Source: Gelidibacter sediminis (GTDB lineage: Bacteria; Bacteroidota; Bacteroidia; Flavobacteriales; Flavobacteriaceae). Taken from it: a stretch of 64,000 nucleotides of DNA. The notes beneath the pieces are model-generated. The model did no database searches, was not told where the DNA came from, and was given only the letters and a program-made list of their open reading frames with translations. A program made the position numbers and the translations under genes. Shown here one piece after another: positions 12,835 through 21,752 of the stretch. The stretch covers positions 1,300,610 to 1,364,609 of the forward strand of contig NZ_SOBW01000008.1 in assembly GCF_004364975.1 (NCBI RefSeq), in the 5' to 3' direction. The stretch's first letter is position 1; every line of letters begins with the position of its first letter.

Positions 12835-14085
12835 ATGAAATTGTTTTTTTTCATAGGGGTAGTAATAATAACAAGCACTGTGGTTTCGCAAGAAATAGTC
12901 ACACTTCAGGAATGTTATGATTTAGCCTCTGTCAATTATCCTCTAACGAAACAATTGTCCTTATTTGAAACGCAACATCAGTTGGAGCAGGAAGTTGTTT
13001 TATCATCAAAATTGCCGCAATTTAGTTTTGATGCACAAGCTACCTACCAGTCTGATGTGATTGCTGTTCCAATTCCAAATTCAACCATAAAACCAATCAA
13101 TAAAGACCAATATCGTGCAACCCTATCCGTAAATCAACTGATTTATAATGGCGGTGCAACAGATGCCTCGCTGAACGTGAAATCATCACAACTCAAAACC
13201 AAACAAAAACAGGTTGAAGTAAACCTCTATCAACTAAAACAACACATCAATCAACTCTATTTCTCGATTTTATTGGCACAGGAAACGGACTTATTACTCC
13301 AATCAAAACAGACCTTGTTGGAAGTTAAATTGAGTGAAGTTATTTCGGGCATCAAATATGGCGTACTTCTACCTGCATCAGATAAAGTTTTGAAAGTTGA
13401 ATTGATAAAAATAAAAAAACAACTTAAAGACATTGAGAGCAATAAAGTAACCTTAATTGAAACACTGTCCAGTATCATTGGGCACCATTTGGATCCTTCC
13501 ACCACATTTCAAAATACGTTGATTGAAACCATTACTACAACCGAATTAACCCGACCCGAATTAGAACTATTTCAACTTAAAAAAGATGAAATTGAAAGCA
13601 ACGAGGCAGTTATAGCCAAACAAAATTCTCCAAAATTATTAGGATTTGCTACAGGTGGCTATGGCAATCCTGGATTGAATATGCTCGATAATTCCTTTCA
13701 ACCCTTTTATAGTCTTAGTGTGAAATTGAATTGGAATGTTTTCGACTGGAATTCCAATAAAAAACTACGAGAAGCCCTGTCAATCAATAAAGATATTATT
13801 GATACTGAGACAGAAACCTTCAAACTAAACACCAACACTGAACTGAACCAGCAGCTCAACGAGATTAAAAGGATAGAGGCGTTTATCGCTTCAGATTTAG
13901 AGATCATCAACCTTCGCAAAGAAGTACTTAAATCTGCCGATTCTCAGCTCAAAAATGGGGTCATTACCTCATCGGCATATATTACCGAACTCACTAATTT
14001 ATACGAAGACGAAAACACTTTAATCAAACATAAAATTCAGTTACAATTGGCAAAAGCAAATTACAATGTTATTAAAGGACATTAA
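12835..14085 (+). CDS. TolC-family outer membrane efflux protein (ABC exporter)
   Basis: 416 residues. An N-terminal signal peptide (about residues 1-19) precedes IVTLQECYDLASVNYPL, the standard opening of an OEP domain. The rest is two repeats of long amphipathic helices and beta strands, with the N-G-x-A and F-D-W patterns of TolC channels. It forms the outer membrane exit duct for the HlyD and ABC components encoded downstream. It begins 4 bp after the TetR gene. Confidence 0.9.
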   Translation: MKLFFFIGVVIITSTVVSQEIVTLQECYDLASVNYPLTKQLSLFETQHQLEQEVVLSSKLPQFSFDAQATYQSDVIAVPIPNSTIKPINKDQYRATLSVNQLIYNGGATDASLNVKSSQLKTKQKQVEVNLYQLKQHINQLYFSILLAQETDLLLQSKQTLLEVKLSEVISGIKYGVLLPASDKVLKVELIKIKKQLKDIESNKVTLIETLSSIIGHHLDPSTTFQNTLIETITTTELTRPELELFQLKKDEIESNEAVIAKQNSPKLLGFATGGYGNPGLNMLDNSFQPFYSLSVKLNWNVFDWNSNKKLREALSINKDIIDTETETFKLNTNTELNQQLNEIKRIEAFIASDLEIINLRKEVLKSADSQLKNGVITSSAYITELTNLYEDENTLIKHKIQLQLAKANYNVIKGH

Positions 14086-14144
14086 TAACCTCCTGCATTT
14101 AGTGCACATATACGCAGAGGGTTGTAAGCATAACAAAAAACAAT

Positions 14145-14174
14145 TCTGCGAAAATCAGCGAAATCAGCGGGAAA
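14145..14174 (+). repeat. Solo copy of the GxxExxY-element terminal repeat
   Basis: The 30 bp beginning TCTGCGAAAATCAGCG match the right end repeat of the GxxExxY element (18348-18377) at 28 of 30 positions, in the same orientation. It lies alone just upstream of the HlyD start at 14189, 3.6 kb from the element, inside the same operon. It may be a relic of a second insertion or a solo mobile repeat. Confidence 0.7.
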
Positions 14175-14188
14175 CAAACACATATAGC

Positions 14189-15091
14189 ATGACATACTCT
14201 AATTATATAATCCCTTTAAGCCTAGTAGCAACTATCCTATTCTCCTGCGACAAATCCAACGGAAAAGCAGATGGCTACGGCAATTTTGAAGCCACAGAAA
14301 TAACAGTTTCTGCTGAAAACAACGGAAAACTGATGCAGTTTGATGTCAATGAAGGCGACCAACTTACCAAGGACCAATTTATAGGGTATATTGATACCAT
14401 TCCGTTGGCCTTAAAACGTGAACAATTGTTCATATCAAAAGACATCATTAGTTCAAAATCTAAAGGGGTTCTGTCTCAAATTAATGTGTTAAATGCTAAA
14501 TTAAAAACAGCTCAAACCAACAAAACCCGCTCCGAAAACCTGATTAAAGATAATGCAGGCACACAAAAACAGTTGGATGATGTTCAGGGCGAAATAGAGG
14601 TTATAAAAAATCAAATTCGCAGTGTTGAAATCCAGAATGCGCCTGTAGTCAACGAATTGAAGAGTATCGATATACAACTCAAACAAATTGATGATCAGAT
14701 TGATAAAAGTAAAATTGTCAACCCAATAAATGGTACTGTATTAACCAAATATTCAGAACCTGGGGAGATTACCTCTTTTGGGCGACCATTGTATAAAATA
14801 GCCAATTTGGGCAGCATGCAATTGAGAGTCTACATCAGTGAAACTCAGTTGGCAAACATTAACATTGGGCAAGAAGTCACCATTAAAATTGATGATGCTG
14901 ACACGATGAAGGCTTACAAGGGCATAATCAGCTGGATTGCTTCGGAAGCGGAGTTCACTCCAAAAATCATTCAAACCAAAGAAGAACGCGTGGCATTGGT
15001 ATATGCTGTTAAAGTGGACGTCACGAATGACGGAAGCCTAAAAATTGGCATGCCCGCAGAATTATGGTTTTACAATTCGAATACTAATTAA
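14189..15091 (+). CDS. HlyD-family periplasmic adaptor lipoprotein (ABC exporter)
   Basis: 300 residues from the ATG at 14189, chosen because it gives a proper signal with lipobox ending at Cys20; the open frame extends upstream to 14066 but that part contains the repeat at 14145. A biotinyl-lipoyl-like segment (GNFEATEITVSAENNGKL) is followed by a coiled-coil hairpin (about residues 75-150, with LKTAQTNKTRSENL and GEIEVIKNQIRS) and a beta-barrel region (GEITSFGRPLYKIA). It bridges the inner-membrane ABC transporter to TolC. It is the equivalent of YbhG in the E. coli YbhGFSR pump. Confidence 0.88.
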   Translation: MTYSNYIIPLSLVATILFSCDKSNGKADGYGNFEATEITVSAENNGKLMQFDVNEGDQLTKDQFIGYIDTIPLALKREQLFISKDIISSKSKGVLSQINVLNAKLKTAQTNKTRSENLIKDNAGTQKQLDDVQGEIEVIKNQIRSVEIQNAPVVNELKSIDIQLKQIDDQIDKSKIVNPINGTVLTKYSEPGEITSFGRPLYKIANLGSMQLRVYISETQLANINIGQEVTIKIDDADTMKAYKGIISWIASEAEFTPKIIQTKEERVALVYAVKVDVTNDGSLKIGMPAELWFYNSNTN

Positions 15092-15119
15092 AACATAATA
15101 ATCATTAAAAACAGAACCA

Positions 15120-15593
15120 ATGAAACATTTAATTTTCGCACTTGGTCTATTGACCATCGTAAGCTGCAAGGACAGTAAAACTTCAGAAACCACCGTGCAT
15201 ACGGATGCCATTGACCACGCCGTGGCGGCCGATGATGAACATCATAATGATGAAACATCCAACGTATATGGCAATACTTGGACTAAAGACATGGCAATGG
15301 ACAATGGTGAGAAATGGCAAGCAGATGTAACCACCAATGAAGGGGTTAAACAATTGCAACAAACCTATTATGCCCAGACCACAAACAGCTTGGAAGACTA
15401 TCATAAATTGGCCGAACAACTTAATGAAGATAAAAACTACGTGGTAAAAAATTGTACGATGGAAGGCCCGTCCCATGACAATTTACACGTTTGGTTACAT
15501 CCATTAATTGAAAAAATTGCGGCGCTTTCAAAAGCTGAAACGATTGAAGATGCTACAAAAATCAAAATTGGCATTGAAGAAAACATTAACTAG
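15120..15593 (+). CDS. His-rich lipoprotein of the efflux operon, function unknown
   Basis: 157 residues with a signal and lipobox ending at Cys16 (TIVSC). Residues 24-45 are rich in His and Asp (IDHAVAADDEHHNDE), which could bind metal. The second half is helical, with KNCTMEGPSHDNLHVWLHPL, a Cys/His pattern similar to small flavobacterial proteins found near metal-resistance genes. I do not recognise a named family. It is placed between the adaptor and the OsmC gene with short gaps, so it belongs to the operon. Confidence 0.6.
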   Translation: MKHLIFALGLLTIVSCKDSKTSETTVHTDAIDHAVAADDEHHNDETSNVYGNTWTKDMAMDNGEKWQADVTTNEGVKQLQQTYYAQTTNSLEDYHKLAEQLNEDKNYVVKNCTMEGPSHDNLHVWLHPLIEKIAALSKAETIEDATKIKIGIEENIN

Positions 15594-15631
15594 TACGACA
15601 CCTATTTTAAATAACAAATCATATAAATACG

Positions 15632-16090
15632 ATGGAAAAACATAGTTATAACGTCAACATCCATTGGACACAAGACCGAAAAGGGATGATGTGTTCACCA
15701 GAATTAGAAAACAAGGAGACTAACGACACCAATTGCATAGAAGTAGCAACACCACCCGATTTTGATAAAGGAATGCCGCATATTTGGTCACCTGAACATT
15801 TGTTTACGGCAGCAGTGAGCAGTTGCTTAATGACCACTTTTTTAGCCATTGCAGACTATTCAAAATTGGAATTCGTCAGTTTTAAATGTCGCTCAAAAGG
15901 TATTCTGGAGAAGGTAAATGGCAAATTTGTAATCAGTGAAGTACTGCTATTCCCTGAAGTTGTTATTTCTGATGAATCTAAGCGTGAACGCACTCTACGC
16001 ATTATAGAAAAATCAGAAAAAGCCTGTTTAATCTCAAATTCCATTACATCAAAAATCACTATGGAAACCAAAATCAGTGTTCAAAACTAA
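15632..16090 (+). CDS. OsmC-family peroxide reductase-like protein
   Basis: 152 residues. The OsmC signature is present: WSPEHLFTAAVSSCLMTTFLAIA, with the first reactive Cys, and EKACLISNSI, with the second. OsmC/Ohr proteins reduce organic hydroperoxides using this Cys pair. OsmC genes are common passengers of this type of flavobacterial ABC export operon. It is 7 bp upstream of the first ATPase gene. Confidence 0.87.
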   Translation: MEKHSYNVNIHWTQDRKGMMCSPELENKETNDTNCIEVATPPDFDKGMPHIWSPEHLFTAAVSSCLMTTFLAIADYSKLEFVSFKCRSKGILEKVNGKFVISEVLLFPEVVISDESKRERTLRIIEKSEKACLISNSITSKITMETKISVQN

Positions 16091-16096
16091 TAATCT

Positions 16097-16999
16097 GTGG
16101 GCATTTCAATACATAACATATCAAAATCCTATAAAGATGTAAAAGCCTTGCAGGACATTTCATTTGAGGTCAAGCCGAATGAACTTTTTGGTATTATTGG
16201 TCCTGATGGTGCTGGTAAGACAACATTATTCAGAATTTTGACCACACTCTTATTTCCTGACCAGGGCACAGCAACTGTGGCTGGATTTGATGTGATTAAA
16301 GATTACAAAAAGATCAGGAACAGCGTAGGTTACATGCCTGGTAAATTCTCCCTATATCATGATTTGACAGTTGAGGAAAACTTAAATTTCTTTGCGACAA
16401 TTTTCGGAACGACTATCGAAGAAAATTATGATTTGATTAAGGATATTTACGTACAAATTGAACCTTTTAATGACCGTCGTGCAGGTAAATTATCGGGTGG
16501 CATGAAGCAAAAGCTAGCCTTGAGCTGTGCGTTAATCCACAAGCCCAAAGTATTATTTTTAGATGAGCCCACTACAGGTGTCGATCCGGTTTCGAGAAAG
16601 GAATTCTGGGAAATGCTAAAGCGTTTGCAACAAAAAAATATCACCATTTTGGTATCTACACCTTATATGGATGAAGCCGCTTTGTGTGACCGAGTAGCTT
16701 TAATTCAAGATGGTAAAATTTTGCAGATAGACACTCCAAAAGCTATTGTGAAACACTATCATAAGTCTATTTATAATGTAAGGTCAGCAAACATGTACCA
16801 GCTGATCACAAGTTTAAAAGCCTATGAACACCACCATAGTGTTTATCCTTTTGGCGAGTTTGTGCATTATACAGATAAACGATCCGATTTTAATCCAGCC
16901 GACTTAATTGCCTATTTAAAATCTAAAAACCTATCCGATATCTATATTGAAAGAACCGAAGCCACTATTGAAGACACCTTTATGGAATTAGCAATATAA
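16097..16999 (+). CDS. ABC transporter ATP-binding protein (YbhF N-half-like)
   Basis: 300 residues from a GTG start at 16097. Walker A is GPDGAGKTTL (about residues 35-44), the signature is LSGGMKQKLALS, and Walker B is VLFLDEPTTGVDP. A C-terminal extension of about 70 residues follows the ATPase core. In E. coli YbhF the two ATPase halves are fused; here they are separate genes, this one and that at 17071. Together they power the two ABC-2 permeases. Confidence 0.9.
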   Translation: MGISIHNISKSYKDVKALQDISFEVKPNELFGIIGPDGAGKTTLFRILTTLLFPDQGTATVAGFDVIKDYKKIRNSVGYMPGKFSLYHDLTVEENLNFFATIFGTTIEENYDLIKDIYVQIEPFNDRRAGKLSGGMKQKLALSCALIHKPKVLFLDEPTTGVDPVSRKEFWEMLKRLQQKNITILVSTPYMDEAALCDRVALIQDGKILQIDTPKAIVKHYHKSIYNVRSANMYQLITSLKAYEHHHSVYPFGEFVHYTDKRSDFNPADLIAYLKSKNLSDIYIERTEATIEDTFMELAI

Positions 17000-17000
17000 A

Positions 17001-17055
17001 TGTCAGTTTGAACGCAGTCGGAACTACAACACATCTCGACTGCGCTCGATGAAAC
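17001..17055. repeat. Dispersed palindromic intergenic repeat
   Basis: AACGCAGTCG (17011-17020) and CGACTGCGCT (17038-17047) form an imperfect hairpin, extended by TTG/CGA. It fills the gap between the two ATPase genes. Similar TCGACTGCGCTCGA hairpins are scattered in many flavobacterial genomes, so this is probably a REP-like element; only one copy is in this window. Confidence 0.6.
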
Positions 17056-17070
17056 AAAATTCACAAAAAA

Positions 17071-17799
17071 ATGAGCAAAAGCAAAGTCATACAAGTAGAA
17101 GGTTTAACCAAAATGTTTGGCGATTTTGCAGCTGTAAACTCCATCACTTTTGAGGTTGAAAAAGGAGAAATCTTTGGATTTTTGGGCGCCAATGGTGCCG
17201 GAAAAACCACAGCCATAAAAATGCTGATCGGTATTTCACACCCAACCTCTGGAAAGGCCACAGTAGCTGGTTTTGATGTTTATACTCAAACAGAATACAT
17301 TAAAAAAAACATAGGTTATATGAGTCAGAAGTTTGCCTTATATGACGATTTAACGGTGAAAGAAAACATCATCTTTTTTGGAGGAATTTATGGATTACCA
17401 CGAAAAATAATTAAAGAAAAATCAGGAACTTTAATTCAGGAACTTGGACTTGAAAACGTTGCCAACCAATTGGTTGGATATTTACCCTTGGGTTGGAAAC
17501 AGAAACTATCCTTTTCAGTGTCCCTGATTCACGATCCGAAAATCGTGTTTTTAGATGAGCCCACAGGAGGCGTTGACCCGATTACCAGACGTCAATTTTG
17601 GGAAATGATCTATAAAGCGGCCAACCAAGGCACCACTGTGTTTGTAACTACCCATTATATGGATGAAGCTGAATATTGTGATCGTGTTTCCATCATGGTC
17701 AATGGTAAAATTGAAGCTTTAGATACACCGAAAAAACTTAAAGAACAGTTTCAGGCGGAGCGCATGAATGATGTGTTTTTAAAGTTGGCGCGCGGATAG
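17071..17799 (+). CDS. ABC transporter ATP-binding protein (YbhF C-half-like)
   Basis: 242 residues. Walker A is GANGAGKTTA, Walker B is IVFLDEPTGGVDP, followed by the switch His in FVTTHYMDEA. The signature loop is YLPLGWKQKLSF instead of LSGGQ, which is usual for the second half of YbhF-type ATPases and suggests an asymmetric pair of ATP sites with the upstream subunit. The permease genes follow after the GxxExxY insertion. Confidence 0.9.
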   Translation: MSKSKVIQVEGLTKMFGDFAAVNSITFEVEKGEIFGFLGANGAGKTTAIKMLIGISHPTSGKATVAGFDVYTQTEYIKKNIGYMSQKFALYDDLTVKENIIFFGGIYGLPRKIIKEKSGTLIQELGLENVANQLVGYLPLGWKQKLSFSVSLIHDPKIVFLDEPTGGVDPITRRQFWEMIYKAANQGTTVFVTTHYMDEAEYCDRVSIMVNGKIEALDTPKKLKEQFQAERMNDVFLKLARG

Positions 17800-17806
17800 A
17801 AAAAAA

Positions 17807-17836
17807 TATCCCGCAGATTTCGCGGATTTTCGCAGA
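17807..17836. repeat. Left inverted repeat of the GxxExxY element
   Basis: A 30-bp repeat containing TCCCGCAGATTTCGCGGA (17809-17826) and ending TTTTCGCAGA. It starts 8 bp after the stop of the ATPase gene and is the inverse of the repeats at 14145 and 18348. Confidence 0.75.
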
Positions 17837-17895
17837 AATATAACGATAATATTTAAAGAAAATCGAGTATTCTCGGCAGAACACAAAAAAAGTTA

Positions 17896-18287
17896 ATGAC
17901 TATAGAATCAAAATCAGAAAACGATATTTCATATAAATTAGAGGGGCAATTTTCAAAGTATATAATGAATTAGGTCCCGGGCTATTAGAATCTGACTATG
18001 AAGCTGTTCTATGTTTCGAGTTACAAAAACAAGGATTATCCATTAAGCGACAAGTTCCTCTACCAGTTATTTATGAAGATGTGGAATTGGAAATTGGTTT
18101 CAGATTGGATGTGTTGGTTAATAATAAAATTATAATCGAAATCAAATCCGTAGAGAAATTAGAGAAAGTACATCATAAACAAATTTTAACCTATTTAAAA
18201 TTAACTGGTCTAAAACTTGGGATTTTAGTCAACTTCAATGTTGATACTATCACTGAAGGGATTTTTAGAAAAGTAAATGGACTATAA
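17896..18287 (+). pseudogene. GxxExxY-family protein gene with one frameshift
   Basis: The start at 17896 reads MTIESKSENDISYKLEG and then runs into a stop at 17971-17973. One base appears missing in the run GGGG at 17943-17946. In the next frame the family sequence continues: GAIFKVYNELGPGLLESDYEAVL, with the diagnostic GLLESDY, then QVPLPVIYEDVELEIGFRLD, IIIEIKSVEKL and HHKQILTYLKLTGLKLGILVNF, to a stop at 18287. These GFRLD and EIKS segments fit a PD-(D/E)XK nuclease-like fold. GxxExxY proteins are widespread and uncharacterised. The frameshift may be real decay or a homopolymer read error. Confidence 0.8.
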
Positions 18288-18293
18288 GAAATA

Positions 18294-18318
18294 GCCCGTA
18301 GATTACACGAATACGTAC
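18294..18318. repeat. Degenerate repeat near the right end of the GxxExxY element
   Basis: GCCCGTAGATTACACGAATA continues to 18318 and resembles the left repeat at 17809 in the same orientation, with several substitutions. It begins 6 bp after the GxxExxY stop codon, so the gene is closely flanked by repeat material on both sides. Confidence 0.45.
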
Positions 18319-18347
18319 AAAAAAAGATCAAACCAAACACTAAGCCT

Positions 18348-18377
18348 TCTGCGAAAATTAGCGAAATCCGCGGGAAA
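18348..18377. repeat. Right inverted repeat of the GxxExxY element
   Basis: A 30-bp repeat beginning TCTGCGAAAATTAGCG and ending CCGCGGGAAA. It matches the solo copy at 14145 at 28 of 30 positions and the inverted left end at 26 of 30. Confidence 0.75.
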
Positions 18378-18424
18378 TGTAAAATTAAGTATTAAAAAAA
18401 AACCTTCCGTCGCAGGGACTTACG

Positions 18425-19531
18425 ATGAAAAGATTTATAGGCTTCGTAAAAAAGGAATTCTACCACATTTTTAGGGATAGACGCTCATTGTTTATTCTCT
18501 TCGGGATGCCTATTGCCCAAATTCTATTGTTTGGATTTACCATTACCAATGAAATCAATAATGTGGATATCGCCATTTTGGACAATTCAAAAAATAGTAC
18601 TACAGAAGCAATCATTAATAAAATAGGGGCTTCAAAGTATTTTAGCATCAAACAAGTATTCACTCGTGAAGCGGATATCGCTTCTGTATTTGAAAAAGGC
18701 CACGTTAAAGCCGTGTTGAACTTTGACAAAGATTTCAGTAAAAAACTGATTAAAGACCACAAGGCAACCATCCAAATCATTACGGATGCCACGGACCCAA
18801 ATACGGCAAATACGATTACCAATTATGTCAATGCCATCCTTCAGCAGTATCAAAAAGAATTGAACAAAGACATCAACGTGGCCTATCAAATAATCCCACA
18901 AACCCGCATGGTTTACAATCCTGAACTCAAAAGTGTGTACATGTTTGTCCCAGGAGTGATGACCATTATTCTGATGTTGGTTTCGGCCATGATGACTTCC
19001 ATTTCGATTACCAGAGAAAAGGAATTAGGTACCATGGAAATCTTGTTGGTGTCCCCATTAAAGCCGTTCCAAGTTGTTATCGGAAAAGTGATTCCTTATA
19101 TTTTTCTATCCATCATTAATGCCATTGTGATTGTTATGTTGAGCATATTTATTTTCAATATGCCTATTCAAGGAAGTCTTTTACTATTAGGTTTGGAGAG
19201 TGTGCTTTTTATCATCACTTCACTCGCTTTAGGCATTTTAATATCCACAATTTCCGCCACTCAGCAAACCGCCATGATGATTTCATTAATGGGATTGATG
19301 TTGCCTGTAATATTATTGTCGGGCTTTATCTTCCCTATTTCGAGCATGCCCATGCCGCTTCAAATTATTAGTCATATTATTCCTGCCAAATGGTTCATCA
19401 TCATTTTAAAGGCTATTATGCTAAAAGGTGTTGGCTTGGAATTTATCTGGAAAGAAACCCTGATTTTATTGGGAATGACGGTATTTTTTATGGCGTTGAG
19501 TGTGAAGAAATATAAGATACGATTGGAGTAA
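18425..19531 (+). CDS. ABC-2 type permease (YbhS/YbhR-like), first
   Basis: 368 residues. One helix lies near the N-terminus (about residues 20-40: SLFILFGMPIAQILLFGFTIT), then a large periplasmic domain, then five helices from about residue 175 (GVMTIILMLVSAMM onwards). The loop REKELGTMEILLVSPLKP after helix 2 is diagnostic of ABC-2 permeases. It partners the permease at 19663 and the two ATPases to export drugs or other toxic compounds. It is separated from the ATPase genes by the GxxExxY element, so full operon transcription must pass through that element. Confidence 0.9.
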   Translation: MKRFIGFVKKEFYHIFRDRRSLFILFGMPIAQILLFGFTITNEINNVDIAILDNSKNSTTEAIINKIGASKYFSIKQVFTREADIASVFEKGHVKAVLNFDKDFSKKLIKDHKATIQIITDATDPNTANTITNYVNAILQQYQKELNKDINVAYQIIPQTRMVYNPELKSVYMFVPGVMTIILMLVSAMMTSISITREKELGTMEILLVSPLKPFQVVIGKVIPYIFLSIINAIVIVMLSIFIFNMPIQGSLLLLGLESVLFIITSLALGILISTISATQQTAMMISLMGLMLPVILLSGFIFPISSMPMPLQIISHIIPAKWFIIILKAIMLKGVGLEFIWKETLILLGMTVFFMALSVKKYKIRLE

Positions 19532-19639
19532 AAAAGTGGGCAGTATTCAGTAAGCAGTCCATAAAAAATTAAAATATCAGTGATTCAAATGACCATATGA
19601 GTGTTGCGAAAATATATATCATTAATAACTAAAAAAGAG

Positions 19640-19659
19640 ATTCCCACCTTTGCGGGAAT
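19640..19659 (+). repeat. Short hairpin just before second permease start
   Basis: ATTCCC (19640-19645) and GGGAAT (19654-19659) form a 6-bp stem with an 8-nt loop, 3 bp before the ATG at 19663. Similar GATTCCCGCCTT-type hairpins are scattered in flavobacterial genomes. Its position could affect translation of the second permease. Confidence 0.4.
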
Positions 19660-19662
19660 ATT

Positions 19663-20784
19663 ATGAAAACAATCCTTTACATCATACAAAAAGAGTTCAA
19701 GCAAATTTTTAGAAATAAGGGTATGCTTCCTATTATTTTTATATTGCCCCTACTCCAATTGGTTATTCTTTCTAATGCCGCCACCTTTGAAGTCAAGAAT
19801 ATGAAATTTGGTTATATTGATAACGATCGCAGCTCGACATCGAGGGCACTGATCGAAAAATTCAATGCATCCACTTATTTTAATGTGCTGACCGATTATC
19901 CTACGCAAAAGCAGGCAAGCGCCGCCATGTTACGAGGCGAAGTTGATGTCATTATGGAAATTCCCCAACATTTTGCGCGCGACTTACAAACAGAACAACA
20001 CAATATATTAGGCATTACTATCAATGCCATTGACGGCGCTGCTGCAGGTGTTGAAAATGTCTATATCTCACAAATCATACTAAGCTTCAATAAAAATATA
20101 AGAACCGATTTATCCCAAATTTCCGATGCGCAAATACAACCCGTCATCATTGAGACCATCCCGTTATTCTGGTATAATGAAACCTTAAATTACAAAACCT
20201 TTATGGTTCCTGGTATCCTGGTATTGTTGGTCACCATGATTACCCTTTTTCTTTCGGGAATGAACATTGTGCGGGAAAAGGAAATAGGAACTTTGGAGCA
20301 AATTAATGTTACGCCCATAAAGAAAAGTCAATTCATAATTGGGAAACTCTTTCCGTTTTGGGTGATTGGGATGGTGTTATTGAGCATCGGATTGATCATC
20401 TCCAAACTTATTTTTGACGTCCCCATGGTGGGCAGTTTACTTCTTCTGTACCTTTATACCTCCATTTATATCTTGGTGGTTTTAGGTATTGGGCTATTTA
20501 TTTCAAACTTTACGGACACCCAACAACAAGCCATGTTTATTGCCTGGTTTTTTGTAGTGATTTTTATTTTGATGAGTGGGTTGTTCACACCAATTGAAAG
20601 TATGCCAAGATGGGCACAACTAATTACCGAGTTTAATCCTATTAAGTATTATGTAGAAGTGATGCGGATGGTGATGCTTAAAGGTTCTGATGTAATGGAT
20701 ATCCTGCCGCAACTGATCAAAACTTTGGCTTACGCTATTGTTATGAATGGTTTGGCAGTATGGAGTTATAAGAAAACTAACTAA
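19663..20784 (+). CDS. ABC-2 type permease (YbhS/YbhR-like), second
   Basis: 373 residues, with the same layout as the first permease: an N-terminal helix (MLPIIFILPLLQLVILSNAA), a periplasmic domain of about 140 residues, and five C-terminal helices. The motif REKEIGTLEQINVTPIKK is the ABC-2 signature loop. The pair should form the heterodimeric membrane part of the exporter. It is the last clear gene of the operon. Confidence 0.9.
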   Translation: MKTILYIIQKEFKQIFRNKGMLPIIFILPLLQLVILSNAATFEVKNMKFGYIDNDRSSTSRALIEKFNASTYFNVLTDYPTQKQASAAMLRGEVDVIMEIPQHFARDLQTEQHNILGITINAIDGAAAGVENVYISQIILSFNKNIRTDLSQISDAQIQPVIIETIPLFWYNETLNYKTFMVPGILVLLVTMITLFLSGMNIVREKEIGTLEQINVTPIKKSQFIIGKLFPFWVIGMVLLSIGLIISKLIFDVPMVGSLLLLYLYTSIYILVVLGIGLFISNFTDTQQQAMFIAWFFVVIFILMSGLFTPIESMPRWAQLITEFNPIKYYVEVMRMVMLKGSDVMDILPQLIKTLAYAIVMNGLAVWSYKKTN

Positions 20785-20903: not shown

Positions 20904-21752
20904 ATGGAACATCAAGTATATATAAAAAAAAGTAACGGAGAAACGGAACTATTTTCCTTTGAAAAGCTTAGAAGATCATTGCGATCATCCGGTGCCAGTA
21001 ATGAAACGGTTGAGACCATTGTCGAAAAGATTCAAGGCCAAGTTTATGACGGCATGTCGTCTAACACAATCTATAGAAAAGCCTTTAGCATCTTAAAAGG
21101 TAAACATAAAAGCACCGCTTCACGATACAGTTTAAAACGCGCCATTTTAGAGTTGGGACCAACCGGTTATCCGTTTGAAAGATTGATTGGGGCTTTATTA
21201 AAGGAAAGAGGATTCAACACCAAAGTAAGTGTCACCTTGCAAGGCGCCTGTGTAACTCACGAAATTGATGTATTGGCCGAAAAAGATGGCAATGTGTATG
21301 CAATTGAATGTAAATTCCATGCCGATGCTAGAGCGACCAGTAATGTGAAAATACCTTTATATATTAATTCGCGATTTTTAGATATTCAACAACAGTGGAA
21401 TTCCAATCCAAAAAACACCACACATTTAAAACAAGGCTGGTTGGTAACTAACACCCGATTTACTGCAGACGCCGTCAACTACGGAAAATGTGTGGGATTA
21501 ACGCTAATGAGTTGGGATTATCCAAAAAATAACGGTCTAAAAGCCAATATAGATTCTTTAGCGTTATATCCAGTAACTACCTTAACTACTTTAAACAAAC
21601 GGGAAAAGCATCTCCTCATAGCGTCTGATGTGATATTGGTTAAGGAATTATTCGATGGCAAGAATAAATTAGTAAATATTGGTTTATCAGACAGAAAAAT
21701 TGAACGTGTTCTGAATGAAGTGCAACAATTGTGTGGATCGGATTGTAATTAA
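20904..21752 (+). CDS. ATP-cone plus PD-(D/E)XK (Mrr-like) nuclease fusion
   Basis: 282 residues. Residues 1 to about 88 form an ATP-cone domain of the type seen in NrdR and ribonucleotide reductase (VYIKKSNGETELFSFEKLRRSL, then YRKAFSILK, SRYSLKRAI). From residue 90 a restriction-endonuclease-like domain follows, with GYPFERLIGALL (Glu92), HEIDVLAE (Asp122) and VYAIECK (Glu135, Lys137), which fit a PD-(D/E)XK site. A third region to the C-terminus ends in two Cys (LCGSDC). An ATP-cone could make nuclease activity depend on ATP or dATP. It stands between two efflux operons and seems to be a single gene. Confidence 0.78.
   Translation: MEHQVYIKKSNGETELFSFEKLRRSLRSSGASNETVETIVEKIQGQVYDGMSSNTIYRKAFSILKGKHKSTASRYSLKRAILELGPTGYPFERLIGALLKERGFNTKVSVTLQGACVTHEIDVLAEKDGNVYAIECKFHADARATSNVKIPLYINSRFLDIQQQWNSNPKNTTHLKQGWLVTNTRFTADAVNYGKCVGLTLMSWDYPKNNGLKANIDSLALYPVTTLTTLNKREKHLLIASDVILVKELFDGKNKLVNIGLSDRKIERVLNEVQQLCGSDCN

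Follow-up and report, generated by a model that had tools for sequence, protein, structure and literature searches.

A common gene between mirror-image word arrays suggests a little-noticed selfish or mobile DNA unit in bacteria

REPtrons, in which a small nuclease gene is flanked by dispersed palindromes (PMC3733652), and the IVS elements of 23S rRNA, which in Coxiella are closed by a 28-bp terminal stem that RNase III cuts (PMC4990558), are the closest described relatives of the unit analysed here, a GxxExxY gene bracketed by inverted repeats within an efflux operon of Gelidibacter sediminis. With REPIN/RAYT systems (REPtrons) and TIRtrons the unit shares a small single-copy nuclease-type gene, flanking repeats that are also dispersed as gene-less palindromes and that depend on the gene, a correspondence between repeat type and gene type, and a downstream or intergenic placement. 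It differs from REPIN/RAYT in the fold of its protein, which is PD-(D/E)XK rather than HUH/Y1, in a host genome that has no Y1 gene, and in its ends, which are arrays of ~10-nt words instead of one GTAG-tagged palindrome, with no GTAG/CGTC seen by inspection; because the HUH transposase and the GTAG tag are absent, we do not file it under REPIN/RAYT. Like the 23S rRNA IVS with its S23 four-helix-bundle protein, it is an ORF-only unit of sporadic distribution whose terminal inverted repeats of ~30 nt can pair around the ORF, but it lies in an mRNA operon of ATPase and permease genes, encodes another protein family, and has arms that are word arrays with many gene-less copies. MITEs are likewise non-autonomous inverted-repeat units, although neither a target duplication nor a clean empty site was found for ours, and free-standing homing endonuclease genes likewise place a small nuclease gene in junctions with same-site presence or absence among relatives, whereas no homing event was seen for GxxExxY units. 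In the open-access literature only two papers name the family, neither with a function for it, and a search of that literature by repeat words and family accessions returned no described link between GxxExxY and repeats.

In the 64,000-nucleotide stretch that was analysed (the window), the unit is flanked by two ABC ATPase genes (16097-16999 and 17071-17799, the latter on the + strand directly upstream) and two ABC-2 permease genes (18425-19531, on the + strand directly downstream, and 19663-20784). The original prediction of a GxxExxY gene between 30-bp inverted ends, inserted in an efflux operon, was borne out, and the arms could be extended to 32 nt with 88% complementarity (inverted-repeat pair I1). 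The left arm (17806-17837, + strand) is built of CRCNRAT words, CGCAGAT and CGCGGAT, and ends in CGCAGA (TCCCGCAGATTTCGCGGATTTTCGCAGAA), with a two-word array placed by motif scan at 17812; the right arm (18347-18378, - strand) is its inverted copy, with an array on the - strand at 18372. The right end proved to be more than an arm, a point that the original prediction had missed. It is a decayed hairpin spanning 18293-18378, in which a decayed word copy, CCCGTAGATTACACGAATACGTAC (18293-18316, + strand), stands opposite the right arm, as seen by direct reading and from the intact hairpins at the same site in genomes G002 and G009. This remnant now does no better in folding than shuffles do.

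Between the arms lies the GxxExxY gene (TIGR04256 / PF13366; 17896-18287, + strand), which matches PF13366 with 139.5 bits (cut-off 22; E 8e-41) when read through a frame break near 17935-17945, and TIGR04256 with 138.4 bits (cut-off 35) and one stop inside. Its reading frame is not intact. The break is real relative to relatives, since positions 17935-17945 hold one base fewer than the same-site orthologues in G001, G002 and G009, and the window copy is therefore probably dead unless the missing base is an assembly error. Downstream of the break the gene still encodes the catalytic-type D, E-x-K and Q-xxx-Y residues. The earlier remark that the insertion does the operon no obvious harm says little, because the copy in question has decayed. 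A PADLOC search returned weak Cas4 matches alone for GxxExxY, and an Rfam search of window positions 13500-20500 gave no match. Elsewhere in the same operon, the spacers at 17018-17050 and 19540-19660 are repeat-like (CATCTCGACTGCGCTCGATG, CAGTATTCAGTAAGCAGTC and the hairpin GAGATTCCCACCTTTGCGGGAAT), and downstream of the permeases (20904-21752) lies a gene for a protein with an ATP-cone, an Mrr/Hjc-like nuclease domain and an AF1548-like C-terminus.

A third copy of the arm, which had been reported upstream, is present at 14144-14172 with 93% identity to the left arm over 29 nt. It is not a stray end, however. At 14105-14174 (no strand assigned; repeats I2 and D2) lies a solo hairpin of this class, its left half decayed, and the third copy is its 3' half; the hairpin stands in the operon between a TolC-like and an HlyD-like gene. 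At the same place in the sister species G006 the hairpin is intact (L298; TCCCGCAGATAGCGCAGATAAACGCAGA-loop-TTCTGCGAAAATCAGCGAAATCAGCGGGA), and the solo units of G006 fold as DNA hairpins with z scores of -5.1 (L298) and -6.1. Scanning the 3.56-Mb genome with a 27-nt IUPAC pattern of the arm (at most 3 mismatches; no matches to the reversed control pattern) returned the three window places and a single poor match with 3 mismatches, so that a generic genome-wide repeat, a reading that we had considered, was rejected.

The architecture recurs across the family. We sampled 153 loci, comprising 78 Bacteroidota GxxExxY loci and 75 loci in named genomes that take in Planctomycetota, Chloroflexota, Acidobacteriota, Cyanobacteria, Proteobacteria and Verrucomicrobiota, and locally aligned the 220 nt upstream of each gene with the reverse complement of the 250 nt downstream (cut-off score at least 14). 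Matching inverted arms were found at 100 of the 153 loci (48/78 and 52/75), compared with 2 of 98 ordinary genes from the window and its neighbours. The predicted small unit around a GxxExxY protein is thus strongly supported as a family-wide layout, but its ends are not one fixed repeat: most arms consist of one degenerate word, C-R-C-N-R-A-K, repeated in forms such as CACAGAG, CGCAAAG, CACGAAT and CGCAGAT, which vary from one element to the next but agree inside any given element. Word spacing peaks at 8-11 nt, about one word per helical turn. Two-word arrays occur upstream in forward orientation at 90/153 loci and downstream in reverse at 83/153, compared with 27 and 33 of the 153 in the wrong orientation, and they are absent from all 50 four-helix-bundle loci and all 927 random window segments; because CRCNRAK was derived from the same 153 loci, the independent part of this evidence is the four-helix-bundle, random-segment and whole-genome counts. 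In another GxxExxY subfamily (GNGFQEVIYQ; L024, L027 and L029), the ends consist of TGTCTGAA and AGGATT-like words, and CRCNRAK is absent. In G218 (C30:42628-44046), a tandem array of CACAGAT words with a 47-nt period flanks a GxxExxY gene on either side.

Since the words are short and degenerate, and ends swapped between elements do match to some extent (32/600 and 72/600 with a score of at least 14), chance or generic low-complexity repeats could in principle produce such arms. The ordinary-gene, random-segment, swapped-end and reversed-pattern controls rule this out, and we regard the explanation as vanishingly improbable. Moreover, when swaps were confined to the same word class, 62 of 105 elements reached a score of at least 16 with their own arms, compared with 34 of 400 swapped pairs, so sharing words is not enough to explain how closely the two arms of an element resemble each other.

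Arrays are also dispersed away from the gene, and they track its presence. Among relatives, the 16 genomes that carry the gene yielded 502 three-word arrays and the 23 that lack it yielded 3, and the reversed pattern, used as a control, gave 8 matches across the 39. The gene itself was found in 99 of 198 sampled Bacteroidota genomes, about half, and occurs in many other phyla. Phylum-wide, the gene-bearing genomes held 1572 three-word matches and the 99 gene-less genomes 175, where matches overlap inside long arrays and thus do not number separate elements. At least four matches were present in 56 gene-bearing and 10 gene-less genomes of 99 each, two of the 10 reaching 43; the genomes compared include related ones and are not independent samples, and permutation of the association within families gave p = 2e-4 (198 genomes). 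The repeats are accordingly linked to the gene and rare in genomes without it, and the original prediction withstands the refutation proposed along with it. Arrays outnumber genes many times over, and most of them are therefore solo, without a gene. One array in G006 (L308) was discarded as a motif false positive within a coding region. In G002, a near-identical repeat of ~270 nt with a three-word CACGAAT array and no gene lies at six places (L327-L332), and array-bearing DNA has thus been mobile.

The layout of a REPtron, with dispersed palindromes around a small nuclease gene (PMC3733652), raises the question of whether these are ordinary REP/REPIN hairpins moved by a RAYT (Y1 HUH) transposase, with GxxExxY incidental. 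Among gene-bearing genomes, at least four arrays occur in 52 of 83 with Y1 and in 4 of 16 without, a comparison in which genome size and kinship are not separated. However, the window genome has arrays yet no match to Y1_Tnp (PF01797), the listed arms carry no GTAG tag at their ends, and arrays show a partial correlation of 0.09 (p 0.2) with Y1 when GxxExxY is controlled for, whereas with GxxExxY, controlling for Y1, it is 0.50 (p 8e-14). On the missing Y1 gene and the partial correlations, RAYT is disfavoured as the mover, though it may have an added role, and we consider RAYT-moved hairpins with an incidental GxxExxY very unlikely.

The type of word follows the clade of the protein and not the genome. 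Across a tree of 123 proteins, the word's final base (G or T) switches 4 times, compared with a mean of 17.2 after shuffling (0/500 as low), and on a tree pruned to less than 60% identity (n=24) it changes 3 times, compared with 6.3 (2/500 as low). The letters at the start of the word (CAC or CGC, the second letter varying) follow the tree weakly, with 18 changes compared with 32 after shuffling. Genome composition does not explain the word type, because several genomes carry both types: in G006 the G-type L017 coexists with the T-type L139 and L144, and in G005 the G-type L013 with the T-type L142.

Comparison of the same junctions in relatives, aided by a query of flanking sites that covered six of eight, shows what else occupies them. 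Between ATPase and permease, G001, G002 and G009 (the last from another genus) hold an orthologue of the GxxExxY gene accompanied by CGCAGAT-type hairpins, in G002 as a tandem series of ~100-nt hairpins; G003, G005, G006, G007 and G008 hold a ACACAGAG-type array and no gene; and G004 and G034 hold an unrelated CCCCTCTAACTCCCC-type repeat. Identical host flanks at L003/L017 enclose a unit of CACGAAT words and one GxxExxY subfamily in G000, but one of CACAGAG words and another subfamily in G006, and at L001/L257 a gene-bearing unit in G000 corresponds to a 120-nt solo hairpin in G006. The L144 site holds the full unit in G006 and G001, remnants in G000 and G004, and a hairpin of TTTGGAATT words in G003, G005, G007 and G008. 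Units abut the stop codon of the upstream gene. In the window genome, word-like repeats stand beside all intact GxxExxY loci and one fragment, with a different sequence each time; arms flank both sides at L003 and L004, and the hairpin at L001 is one-sided. At L003 (1201-1500), the unit's left arm and the 3' end of the gene upstream of it are duplicated together.

The original prediction took the unit to be mobile. The four junctions compared in sisters offered neither a clean empty site nor a target duplication, each holding a remnant, a solo hairpin or a different unit, so we infer movement rather than report it as observed; nor were identical gene-bearing copies found at distant loci of one genome, and no movement event was seen. 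The junctions might instead be hot spots at which arrays arise by slippage or recombination, with GxxExxY a useful host gene (repair or defence) carried between them. Consistent with this, the count of words at the L305 site varies between sisters in steps of 9 nt, unrelated repeats of the CCCCTCTAACTCCCC and TTTGGAATT types gather at the same junctions, and the protein at site B has been under strong purifying selection through long vertical descent. A passenger gene leaves unexplained, however, why the words are specific to the family (0/50 four-helix-bundle loci), why word type tracks clade and why arrays track the gene, and we judge it unlikely.

The main rival to a DNA-level unit is an IVS-like unit acting in RNA, in which the arms would form a long mRNA stem that RNase III cuts, the unit would be tolerated in operons much as IVSs are in 23S rRNA, and the gene would be cargo. 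The Coxiella IVS, with its RNase III-cut terminal stem (PMC4990558), offers a precedent. The suggestion that the ends be folded as RNA led to a clear result for the whole window unit, which reaches -127 kcal/mol compared with -100.8 +- 6.0 for shuffles (0/100 as low; z -4.4) with the arms pairing around the ORF. The same bracketed layout appears in the IVS-encoded family, where 25 of 50 four-helix-bundle genes have matching arms, and units tend to be co-directional between neighbours (66/76 and 46/68 for GxxExxY, 49/50 for four-helix-bundle genes, 36/58 for the window background). However, had the stem been selected in the transcript, the arms would be expected to have a bias towards G-U among their sense-strand mismatches, and none is seen (98 G-U vs 96 A-C, from 43 vs 47 and 55 vs 49), which favours a DNA-level cause of arm matching. 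The four-helix-bundle arms are likewise unbiased (18 vs 23), the window unit lies outside rRNA and has no Rfam match, and the words go with the protein family and with its individual clades, a specificity that RNase III processing does not need. We therefore hold the RNA-level reading to be improbable, if still the strongest competitor. The four-helix-bundle genes outside rRNA (TIGR02436, IVS/S23-type; L069-L098 and L228-L247) have words of their own, TTAAGTATTAAG, AATCAAGATTCAAG and CAGTCTCAGTC among others, in the bracketed layout.

Membership of the protein in GxxExxY (TIGR04256) / PDDEXK_3 (PF13366), with RecB/Cas4-like motifs, is clear from the profiles and from the conserved D, E-x-K and Q-xxx-Y. 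Across 55 sequences D62, K74, Q86 and Y90 are invariant and E72 is conserved in at least 90% (pattern D, E72-x-K74, Q86-xxx-Y90), residues that fit an active RecB/Cas4-type site. A model of the G001 orthologue has the PD-(D/E)XK fold (pLDDT 96). The closest solved fold among the matches listed is the Cas4-like SSO0001 (Z 8.4, 3.5 A over 93 residues), which Foldseek also returned with a probability of 0.99 but an E of 0.05; Hjc Holliday-junction resolvases and XisH-type proteins match at lower Z, and these further matches, of middling Z, possibly reflect a common arrangement alone. Values of dN/dS are 0.02-0.08 among the site B orthologues of six species (0.20 for one close pair) and 0.035-0.05 at two other sites, the ABC-site orthologues being excluded for their frame offset. 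By these substitution rates, intact copies are under purifying selection, and the protein matters to something.

Architecture, word specificity and the dependence of arrays on the gene are well supported. On this basis, the window unit may well be a decayed member of a widespread two-part unit, consisting of a GxxExxY gene and inverted arrays of recognition words, a reading to which we give about even weight. The best account of how such a unit works, and one that we would back with equal reserve, is that the GxxExxY nuclease recognises and mobilises its own arrays. In this account, which resembles the working of REPIN/RAYT pairs, the protein would recognise arms that carry its own word type, probably once these have folded into a hairpin or cruciform, and would then nick or resolve them, after which repair and recombination would copy either the gene-bearing unit or the hairpin alone into further arrays or junctions between genes. 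Weighing against it are the lack of any observed movement event, the arrays present in some gene-less genomes, the greater abundance of arrays where Y1 is also present, the kinship of the genomes sampled and the middling Z of the fold matches beyond SSO0001. More tentatively, and with greater doubt than belief, GxxExxY with CRCNRAK arrays could be a new class of mobile DNA across many phyla, in which a Cas4/Hjc-like nuclease acts on its own hairpins or cruciforms, and the four-helix-bundle genes with their own words could be a second, parallel class.

The word array gives an orphan nuclease a testable substrate, and the link between family and word accounts for a large class of unexplained intergenic repeats. 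Mobilisation by the GxxExxY nuclease would add a non-HUH, non-DDE path for the dispersal of bacterial repeats, and the parallel with four-helix-bundle genes suggests that the design is broader and that IVS elements have a place outside rRNA.
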